Part shown: piece after piece, positions 30,474-32,884 of the stretch | Layout: every line of letters begins with the position of its first letter | How positions within the stretch are numbered: the first letter of the stretch is position 1 | Assembly (NCBI GenBank): GCA_017442315.1 | Contig: JAFRZX010000119.1 | Span: 1 to 49,060 of the forward strand | DNA: 49,060 bases | Direction: 5' to 3' | From: Bacteroidales bacterium | GTDB taxonomy: Bacteria; Bacteroidota; Bacteroidia; Bacteroidales; UBA932 | The notes under the pieces: generated by a model | Told to the model about the DNA's origin: nothing | What the model saw: the letters and a program-made list of their open reading frames with translations, nothing else | The model's database searches: none | Translations under genes and position numbers: made by a program

Positions 30474-30503
30474 CCTCATGACCATCTCCCGACGGTCATG
30501 AGG
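30474..30503 (-). terminator. Bidirectional-looking terminator between the U32 gene and small lipoprotein A
   Basis: Arms CCTCATGACC (30474-30483) and GGTCATGAGG (30494-30503) form a perfect 10-bp stem. On the minus strand the stem is followed by TTTTT, so it terminates lipoprotein gene A; on the plus strand it lies three bases after the U32 stop but without a T-run. A second small stem AACCTT/AAGGTT (30523-30540) touches the stop codon of gene A. Confidence 0.8.
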
Positions 30504-30539
30504 CAACGCATTATTTCAAATCAACCTTAATATAAAGGT

Positions 30540-30914
30540 TTACCTTCCGATCTTAGTCAATATTACGTTAAATTCACCTTCATGCGACAGTGTCATTACA
30601 GAACCGTTCACTGTTCCTGTCAAGGTTTGAGAATATCCACGTCCATATTCCATTACAGTAATCATTATTGAAGGGTTTGTAAAAGTATATGTACCGGTAC
30701 CGTTAAAGTAATCATCACAGTAGTCAGTCCAAGTGCATGTCACCGACGACTCTGATGTAAAAATAATATTATAAGACCATCCCATATCAGACACACCTGT
30801 CCATGTTGTTCCCGCAAGATGCTTTGGTTTGGTGATTTTCTCACATGATGTGAAAGAAAACGATGCTGCCACAAGTACGGTAACAGCTGCAACTAGAGCA
30901 ACTAGTCTTTTCAT
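30540..30914 (-). CDS. Small lipoprotein A, GTxWxG type, function unknown
   Basis: I do not recognise a named function. The 124-residue protein has a signal peptide with lipobox FTSC (Cys24) and then EKITKPKH. The mature part is a short all-beta-looking domain: AGTTWTGVSDMGWSYNIIF, alternating Thr/Ser-rich strands, TGTVNGSVMTLS and VILTKIG at the end. It is paralogous to the gene at 31437 (matching G-T-W-G--D, NGTV/NGSV, and the L-K ends), suggesting a small lipocalin- or meta-like barrel. No acidic export signal follows the Cys, so it may face the periplasm. It has its own promoter with a G8 tract and its own terminator, so it is a single-gene unit. Confidence 0.8.
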   Translation of the reverse strand: MKRLVALVAAVTVLVAASFSFTSCEKITKPKHLAGTTWTGVSDMGWSYNIIFTSESSVTCTWTDYCDDYFNGTGTYTFTNPSIMITVMEYGRGYSQTLTGTVNGSVMTLSHEGEFNVILTKIGR

Positions 30915-30968
30915 GATTTTTTGTACGATTAAATGATTAAATATAATACTTTACCTCATTCAGGCGTG

Positions 30969-30998
30969 CAAATATACCCCCCCCGCGACTTTTCCAAA
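30969..30998 (-). promoter_or_regulatory. Promoter of lipoprotein A with G8 tract in the spacer
   Basis: On the minus strand, -33 TTTG (30995-30998) is separated by 18 bases from -7 TATATTTG (30969-30976). The spacer ends in eight consecutive G directly next to the -7 box (30977-30984). The box is 54 bases before the ATG. The whole element is nearly the same as that upstream of lipoprotein B, where the tract has nine G. Confidence 0.82.
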
Positions 30999-31020
30999 TT
31001 TTTCTGCATAAATCTCTGTT

Positions 31021-31373
31021 TCTGACTTTTCCAACTTTCTCTAAAGAAATCACGGCTCAGTCGCAAAAACATGTGTCTGAGTCCCGTGACACGAGGTTTG
31101 CGCAGCTTGCTTTTAGCAGTTGCTGGCGTATTTGCCAGCTGCGGTGCTTATTGTCCACAAATGACAGGCACGACCTCTATAGTCTTAGAAGATGTTTAAT
31201 TCTTAAACAGCTTCTTATACCACTGTGTCATTTTAGACGGGTTTCATATGGCAGTACTGCCGAATTCTAACCATTTGAGCCATATCAGGCACCACTGTGT
31301 CGTCTGCAAGGCTAAACTTGTCACAGTACTTCCGTTGCCTGTCGCAATGGCTTGTCACGAAATACAGACCACC
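31021..31373. other. Gene-poor stretch between the two lipoproteins, possible mobile-element relic
   Basis: No convincing gene. Visible structures are GCTGGC/GCCAGC (a 6-bp stem with loop GTATTT near 31120-31141) and an interrupted inverted repeat at 31187-31215, AGAAG-AT-GTTTAA and TTAAAC-AG-CTTCT. There is also a repeated ACCACTGTGTC near 31218 and 31290. A 66-codon minus-strand frame (31233-31433) overlaps the terminator and has no homology I recognise. The inverted repeat resembles ends of some Bacteroidales insertion sequences, but no transposase can be read. Confidence 0.3.
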
Positions 31374-31417
31374 ATAAAAACAAAAACAGGCAGCAACGTT
31401 ACTAACGTTACTGCCTG
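31374..31417 (-). terminator. Intrinsic terminator of lipoprotein B
   Basis: On the minus strand CAGGCAG-T-AACGTT pairs with AACGTT-G-CTGCCTG (31387-31417) through a T-G wobble, with a 3-base loop, followed by TTTTTGTTTTTAT (31374-31386). It lies about 20 bases after the lipoprotein B stop. Confidence 0.9.
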
Positions 31418-31436
31418 TAATGGGTATGACCATTCA

Positions 31437-31775
31437 TTATAGCTTGCGTAATGTCAAAGGCTCACCATCAGGATTATACAGAATCATTGTATCTTTATCC
31501 ACTGTGCCATTGATGATACCACCACCAATCGATACGTTCGGTTTTTCATATACATAAGGCAGCGTCAATGAGAGGTTCTCTCCATCATCATCAGATTCAG
31601 AAACAGAGAACACACATGTAGTCTCAGTATTGAAATCAATCATAACAGAAACATCATCTACTCCAATCCATTTAGTACCTACCAGGGAGCCATTAGTTTT
31701 GGAACAAGACGAAACAGAAAGCGATGCAACTGCAAGCACTGCCACAGATGCAAGCATTACTAAAAATTTTTTCAT
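31437..31775 (-). CDS. Small lipoprotein B, paralog of lipoprotein A
   Basis: Function not recognised. ATG 31775 starts the lipoprotein leader MKKFLVMLASVAVLAVASLS with lipobox VSSC (Cys24). The frame stays open further upstream, but that part overlaps the promoter and does not look like protein. The 112-residue product continues SKTNGSLVGTKWIGVDDVSVMIDF, a short beta-rich domain with IINGTVDKDTMILYN and a basic end LTLRKL, parallel to lipoprotein A. No acidic export signal follows the Cys. It has its own promoter with a G9 tract and a strong terminator. It lies on the same strand as miaA upstream but appears to be transcribed independently. Confidence 0.8.
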   Translation of the reverse strand: MKKFLVMLASVAVLAVASLSVSSCSKTNGSLVGTKWIGVDDVSVMIDFNTETTCVFSVSESDDDGENLSLTLPYVYEKPNVSIGGGIINGTVDKDTMILYNPDGEPLTLRKL

Positions 31776-31815
31776 AACAGGTTGATTTGAAATTTGTAAC
31801 TTGCTTTTAAAGATG

Positions 31816-31847
31816 CAAATATATCCCCCCCCCGCGACTTTTCCAAA
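31816..31847 (-). promoter_or_regulatory. Promoter of lipoprotein B with G9 tract in the spacer
   Basis: On the minus strand, -33 TTTG (31844-31847) and -7 TATATTTG (31816-31823) are 20 bases apart. The spacer contains nine consecutive G (31825-31833). The flanking AAATTTGGAAAAGTCGC is identical to the promoter of lipoprotein A, while spacer length differs by two bases. Confidence 0.82.
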
Positions 31848-31969
31848 TTTTTCCATAAAATCTACAAAATCTCTGATTTTTACGGATTCAGGTTGATGGG
31901 GAAGTCGACGCGATGTCGCTGCCATATGTATATGAAAAACCGAACATATCGATTGCAGGCTCAAGAGTC

Positions 31970-32884
31970 CTACAGTTCCTTCCAGATTATTGATTTGTCA
32001 CGGCCCCACCATGAAAGCTGGCGTTTGGCATAATGGCGTGTATTGCGCTGAATGAGTTCGACAGCACGCTCCAGCGATGTGACAGGTCCGTCTCCAGGAA
32101 TTGTCGGTCCCCATCCTTCAAGACAGACACGTCCTTCCAGATAATCGAACCAGCTGAATATTTCTTTGTATCCTACCGTCTGAAGTGCAGTCAGGTCACG
32201 ATATGCAGTAAGTGAACGGACTTCTTCTACCAGTCCTTCATCAATCATCTGAAGCACCCGTCGGTTGATACGTTCATAAAGCACATCACGAGGACGTACC
32301 AGTCCTATCTTCTCGATATCGAAATCACGCTTCTTGCTGACAGATGTCTTGAATGAAGAAAATGGTCTTCCTGTCATAAGGCATACTTCAAGGGCCCGCA
32401 CGACACGCTGTCCGTTGGCGATGTCAATAGCTGCATAGCTCTCAGGATCGAGCATCTTCAATTCTGTCCTGAGCGACTCCACACCTTCCTCTTTCAGACG
32501 TTCCATCAGTTCATTCCTCAACCGGATGTCGGCAGCCGGAAAGTCATCCAGTCCATTCACCAGAGCATCGATATAGAATCCTGATCCACCTGCCATAACA
32601 AGCGTATCATGGCCTTCTTCAAAAAGACGGTTTATCAGTTCCAACGCCTCAACCTCATAACGTCCTGCCGTATACAGATCCTCTACCGTATGAGAATGGA
32701 TAAAATAATGCTGAACAGTCTGAAGCTGTTCAGCAGAAGGTACTGCCGTACCTATTGTCATTTCCTTATAAATCTGACGCGAATCGCAGGAAATTACAGG
32801 GGAATCATATTTAAGCGCAGTCTCTATGCTGTAGTCCGTCTTTCCTACAGCTGTGGGACCAAGTATGATAATCAGCTTCTTCAT
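31970..32884 (-). CDS. miaA: tRNA dimethylallyltransferase
   Basis: Transfers a dimethylallyl group to A37 of tRNAs that read codons starting with U. The 304-residue protein has P-loop GPTAVGKT (9-16), then CDSRQIY (33-39), MAGGSGFYIDALVNGL (97-112), NGQRVVRALEV and QTVGYKE, all diagnostic of MiaA, and RNTRHYAKRQLSWW near the end. The length is normal. It starts 36 bases after the pRiA4b-like gene on the same strand and probably shares the promoter at 33518. An alternative role is very unlikely. Confidence 0.98.
   Translation of the reverse strand: MKKLIIILGPTAVGKTDYSIETALKYDSPVISCDSRQIYKEMTIGTAVPSAEQLQTVQHYFIHSHTVEDLYTAGRYEVEALELINRLFEEGHDTLVMAGGSGFYIDALVNGLDDFPAADIRLRNELMERLKEEGVESLRTELKMLDPESYAAIDIANGQRVVRALEVCLMTGRPFSSFKTSVSKKRDFDIEKIGLVRPRDVLYERINRRVLQMIDEGLVEEVRSLTAYRDLTALQTVGYKEIFSWFDYLEGRVCLEGWGPTIPGDGPVTSLERAVELIQRNTRHYAKRQLSWWGRDKSIIWKEL

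Follow-up and report, generated by a model that had tools for sequence, protein, structure and literature searches.

Guanine-tract spacers in promoters of exported-protein genes of a Bacteroidales genome: a candidate system of transcriptional phase variation

To our knowledge, phase variation in gut Bacteroidales is regarded as a matter of DNA inversion, and surveys for it seek inverted repeats. Invertible promoters at capsule and SusC/D loci in this order bring about phase variation of surface structures at transcription initiation (PMC12632263), and the accessible portions of two reviews (PMC12632263, PMC11868660) treat Bacteroidales phase variation as inversion, the words "slipped" and "homopolymer" being absent from the main text of the former. 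At the level of titles and abstracts, with thin coverage of subscription journals, no report on homopolymer-spacer promoters in Bacteroidota was found. According to the available text of the sources, porA and fetA of Neisseria undergo transcriptional phase variation via a homopolymer situated between the promoter elements (PMC5320596; porA also in PMC7864442), and the promoter of Treponema pallidum tprL, which encodes a putative outer-membrane protein, contains a variable poly-G tract whose length affects promoter activity (PMC7864442). The sigma-ABfr promoter of Bacteroides is in turn described with TANNTTTG at -7 and TTTG at -33 (PMC7366714).

The window, i.e. the whole stretch of 49,060 nucleotides analysed here, contains two small lipoprotein genes on the minus strand (genes A and B), each preceded by a promoter with the layout TTTG-GAAAAGTCGC-Gn-(A)-TATATTTG (Table 1). 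In both promoters GAAAAGTCGC is located between TTTG and the G tract; the G8 of promoter A abuts TATATTTG, and a single A separates the G9 of promoter B from TATATTTG. The initial annotation had noted nearly the same TTTG, G-tract and -7 element before both genes, with eight versus nine G and a -33 to -7 spacing of 18 versus 20, and the sequence agrees with it on each count, the two copies matching at 97% over 33 nt at a distance of 849 bp. The two tracts are the only G or C runs of at least 8 nt in the window, and TATATTTG occurs there four times on both strands together, twice as the -7 boxes of promoters A and B. A third, degenerate copy of the upstream half-element is without G tract and without -7 box.

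Like the Bacteroides sigma-ABfr promoter, promoters A and B combine a -7 box of the TANNTTTG type, in the form of TATATTTG, with TTTG at -33, at spacings (18 and 20) which are used genome-wide with a peak at 19 and then 20; they are set apart by a spacer that is largely a G homopolymer. With eight and nine G, this homopolymer has the length (about 8 or more) characteristic of tracts between the core promoter elements of the porA and fetA type, where the length of the G or C tract alters both spacing and surface-protein expression (PMC5320596, PMC7864442). Unlike in Neisseria, the promoter class is that of -33 TTTG and -7 TANNTTTG, the phylum is a different one, and the tract follows a common upstream half at several loci of one genome. 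With tprL of T. pallidum the window promoters have in common a poly-G tract in the promoter of a gene for a putative surface protein, whereas phylum and promoter class again differ and the present case is known from sequence alone. The invertible promoters of Bacteroidales belong to the same order and likewise switch at transcription initiation, as is proposed here; the agent there is DNA inversion, however, and the proposed agent here is homopolymer slippage.

Table 1. Positions of the promoter elements and genes in the window, and loci of SusC-like receptor genes with G tracts in their promoters.
Feature	Position or locus	Strand	Remarks
Promoter A	30969-30998	minus	spacer 18
-33 TTTG, promoter A	30995..30998	minus	inside GAAAAATTTGGAAAAGTCGC
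G8 tract, promoter A spacer	30977..30984	minus	total spacing 18
-7 box TATATTTG, promoter A	30969..30976	minus	
Promoter B	31816-31847	minus	spacer 20
-33 TTTG, promoter B	31844..31847	minus	
G9 tract, promoter B spacer	31825..31833	minus	with one A, total spacing 20
-7 box TATATTTG, promoter B	31816..31823	minus	
Degenerate third copy, upstream half-element GTTGGAAAAGTC	31024..31051	minus	repeat family D1, 82%
Gene A, small lipoprotein	30540..30914	minus	124 aa; ATG 30914; lipobox ...FSFTSC
Gene B, small lipoprotein	31437..31775	minus	112 aa from ATG; ATG 31775; lipobox ...LSVSSC
SusC-like receptor genes, five genomes	L142, L146, L147, L024, L232		promoter tracts G9-G12; L232 outside the Pfam scan

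The products of genes A and B carry lipobox-type signal peptides and are paralogues, as had been proposed, with 36% identity in alignment A2 and, by a separate comparison, E 9.1e-7. Neither product matched a Pfam family above cut-off, and no relative with a solved structure was obtained for the window lipoproteins by sequence search. The paralogy and the near-identity of the promoter cores would both fit an explanation in which promoters A and B were merely duplicated along with the lipoprotein gene and their tracts drift neutrally. Unrelated genes, however, carry the element too, both in the source genome (the gene of an OmpA-family protein and others) and in other genomes, and duplication with drift does not predict the bias towards exported proteins described below; we hold this explanation to be very improbable.

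No inverted-repeat pairs of at least 18 nt flanking promoter A were found within positions 30480-32000. An inverted repeat with arms of 62 nt (31526-31587 / 31894-31955, 50/62 matches), best conserved over 42 nt (31526-31567 / 31914-31955, 39/42), encloses promoter B together with the 5′ portion of gene B. One arm is inside the gene B coding sequence; the outer arm follows directly after miaA and resembles an inverted remnant of the window lipoprotein family. DNA inversion at this site is conceivable. Positions 31100-31147, between the lipoprotein genes, form a dispersed repeat; other genomes of the genus match it over some 50 nt at numerous sites.

The source genome is a draft of 2.8 Mb in 173 contigs (88.6% complete), in which 32 overlapping G8 matches were reduced to 24 distinct tracts, the longest being G9. 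Eight of these 24 are located 0-6 nt 5′ of TATATTTG, all in G sense and none in C sense (0/24), as compared with a chance expectation of about 0.007 derived from the density of TATATTTG boxes in the window. The genome-wide search for further copies, which the initial annotation had called for, accordingly counts at least eight promoters including the window pair, and genes for exported proteins follow: the two window lipoproteins, four more lipoproteins, two of them paralogous (one matching Fib_succ_major below cut-off), an OmpA-family protein, and one exported protein whose match to LpoB is likewise below cut-off. Upstream, GAAAAATTTGGAAAAGT or a one-letter variant of it is common to six of the eight. 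Two more paralogues of the window lipoproteins have kept the upstream half, with G5-CG (C26) and GGGGCGGG (C21) as spacers, and at C23 another gene is preceded by a GGGAGGG form. The G-rich spacer may thus be a general trait of the promoter family, with the pure tracts as its slippable subset.

Since short or interrupted G-rich spacers of this kind (GGGGCGGG, GGGAGGG, G5) exist, G-richness may matter for other reasons. The spacer could be static, i.e. a regulator-binding or DNA-shape element of a co-regulated set of exported proteins, in which changes of length are incidental. The common upstream half with its consistent G-sense orientation, and its retention in paralogues whose spacers are not pure, are in keeping with such an element; mere G-richness, on the other hand, needs no pure tracts. 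The tract lengths in relatives, given below, bear on the same question.

Another promoter style is also recurrent in the genome; its spacer closes with AAAAAGTGCG and is followed by TATCTTTG or TATATTTG (G000:C4:73968, C73:103, C88:491, C76:59193 and C76:99684). Further G tracts were observed in or near genes. Two G8 tracts (G000:C137:14880, L066; G000:C164:32715, L071) lie near the 5′ end of genes with signal-peptide-like starts; in the assembly the starting frame meets a stop shortly past the tract and a different frame stays open beyond it, an arrangement suggestive of translational switches. The gene of a C-5 cytosine DNA methylase (PF00145; G000:C124:2656, L064) contains a G9 tract in frame, and two genes for TonB-plug (SusC-like) receptors have in-frame G8 tracts close to where the carboxypeptidase-regulatory-like domain begins (G000:C168:36830, L076; G000:C171:64309, L077). 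At G000:C76:54424 (L057), a G8 tract is placed 5 nt ahead of the possible ATG of a protein with a NusG/KOW domain, which may be a capsule-type antiterminator.

By a crude, home-made signal-peptide rule, which visibly errs both ways for some proteins, all eight genes behind the poly-G promoters code for exported proteins (six with lipobox), versus 8 of the 30 other source-genome promoters with an ORF (Fisher p = 2.6e-4). These controls came from 40 regions hand-picked in listing order, with spacings mostly of 18-21, which gave 39 promoters, nine without an ORF and one with an interrupted G spacer. Across all loci collected, 57 distinct sites with G7 or longer were counted, a set for which the family's own pattern had retrieved many of the loci and in which the RGIG8520/RGIG3000 pair (see below) counts double; 31 of the sites belong to the TTTGGAAA/ATTGGAAA family, where 29 have an ORF and 25 of these ORFs code for exported proteins according to the same crude rule (41 of 52 for all sites). 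Short peptides of similar style (...YEAP..., late Cys) were observed in several genomes behind or across G tracts (L122, L129, L131 and L072).

Within the genus, the pattern G7-N(0-6)-TATATTTG matched in 26 of 400 genomes and its reversed control in none (0/400), with 42 distinct sites by our own count, eight of them in the source genome. In an order-wide sample of 393 genomes, six matched, the source genome included, and control hits appeared in four, i.e. there was no enrichment across the order beyond the source genome in this sample. A looser pattern of G6 and TANNTTTG was discarded as a genus signal (17/101 genomes versus 18/101 for the reversed control, own count), several sites in the source genome and in G010 being the exceptions. 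A second copy of the window locus was not found among the 400 genus genomes, and the matches to it listed for the other 399 were at most about 63 nt long and represented the promoter or the dispersed repeat. Scanning of named species genomes with TTGGAAA-N(4-7)-G6-N(0-6)-TATATTTG returned 25 stretches, 21 of which are titled Bacteroidales, Bacteroidia or Alistipes sp.; 14 of the 25 came, by title, from gut samples of deer, goat, sheep or dairy cattle, and the four from other groups may in part be due to chance. The complete upstream half was identified with G13 in a Bacteroidia MAG (L117). In IMG/VR the scan returned three stretches, one with G8 and two related contigs (L225, L226) with a common promoter that contains G6 and the TTTGGAAA half; these offered no basis for comparing strains.

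The closest comparison of tract lengths was between RGIG8520 (L099, from water deer) and RGIG3000 (L115, from goat), which both contain two exported-protein genes in tandem, each gene with a poly-G promoter of its own. An alignment of 1,632 columns showed four substitutions and no indels apart from a single G in each of the two promoter tracts, G9 versus G8 in one and G9 versus G10 in the other. A T7, the one remaining run of at least 6 nt in this stretch, has the same length in both. Slippage of the tracts, as foreseen in the initial annotation for the window pair, thereby finds support for the promoter type, in that both tracts differ at this tandem locus between near-identical flanks. The pair, like most of the compared genomes, consists of draft assemblies or MAGs in which homopolymer miscalls are possible, and the tract lengths might on that account be taken for sequencing or assembly errors. 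Pure G8 and G9 tracts recur, however, at many loci and in separate assemblies, and errors are not expected to prefer promoter spacers or one strand; we give this explanation hardly any credence.

At greater divergence, where some homologous promoters vary and others keep one length, a SusC query matched 16 genomes, of which six were aligned. Five of the six promoters keep a pure tract in the same place (G12, G11, G10, G9 and G9), one of them preceding TATTTTTG and not TATATTTG, and the sixth has the spacer GGGGTGGG. The three closest loci are 75-82% identical, and Pfam scans of four products gave TonB plug and CarboxypepD_reg-like domains. At five homologous promoter loci of 'Alistipes sp.' MAGs, four tracts are G9 and one is G6, and the homologous promoters of L131 and L132 are both G10; identity at these promoters of constant length is roughly 76-82%. 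As read from these alignments, the SusC-like, 'Alistipes sp.' and L131/L132 sets indicate that a tract can persist, which alone is no proof of fast change, and because of the constant-length promoters our confidence in switching is slightly lowered. For the static element, the G9 shared by four of the five 'Alistipes sp.' promoters, the G6 of both related IMG/VR contigs, the GGGAGGG at C23 and the GGGGTGGG of one SusC relative count in favour; against it, tract lengths within the family range from G7 to G13, and both tracts differ in the near-identical RGIG8520/RGIG3000 pair. On balance we regard a static spacer as unlikely.

For slippage to act as a switch, promoter output would have to depend on spacing, as the initial annotation assumed, and this is supported by a sharp peak at 19 among the promoters of the source genome. 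The pattern TTTG-N-TATNTTTG matched 141 times, versus 40 times for the reversed control, and among the 100 of the 141 matches listed the spacings were 19 (n=26), 20 (n=17), 21 (n=10) and 18 (n=7). Leaving out the four poly-G promoters among them (one at 18, two at 20, one at 21) gives 26, 15, 9 and 6 for the spacings 19, 20, 21 and 18, respectively. In the TTTGGAAA poly-G family, spacing ranges from 17 to 23 with a mode of 19-20. The commonest spacing thus falls between those of promoters A (18) and B (20), one base away from each; by analogy with spacing-dependent promoters elsewhere, we infer that a one-base slip should alter the strength of either promoter independently of the other.

In the proposed mechanism, a Bacteroidota housekeeping promoter of the sigma-ABfr type would drive each lipoprotein gene, with transcription starting at promoters A and B. 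Slipped-strand mispairing in the mostly pure G tract that makes up the spacer between -33 TTTG and -7 TATATTTG would add or remove one G, and such a change would shift the spacing about the optimum near 19, so that individual cells would transcribe the gene more or less strongly. A single G would be expected to alter the output appreciably, and switching within a strain would be frequent and reversible. The two window genes, and six other exported-protein genes with tracts of their own, could then switch independently.

We consider it probable that slippage in poly-G spacers constitutes transcriptional phase variation of the Neisseria porA/fetA kind, operating on Bacteroidota promoters at many loci. 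A broader proposal, on which we are evenly divided, is that a ruminant-gut lineage of Bacteroidales, in a phylum of inversion-based phase variation, has evolved a dispersed family of poly-G promoters that independently switch SusC-like receptors, lipoproteins and an OmpA-family protein, the interrupted or short tracts being locked derivatives and the few in-gene tracts translational switches. The poly-G promoters represent a natural spacing series for probing the spacing tolerance of an unusual promoter class. If the switch is real, it would be readable in existing metagenomes from G-tract lengths at named promoters, and if poly-G spacer promoters do switch surface proteins here, they would constitute an overlooked second class of Bacteroidales switches.
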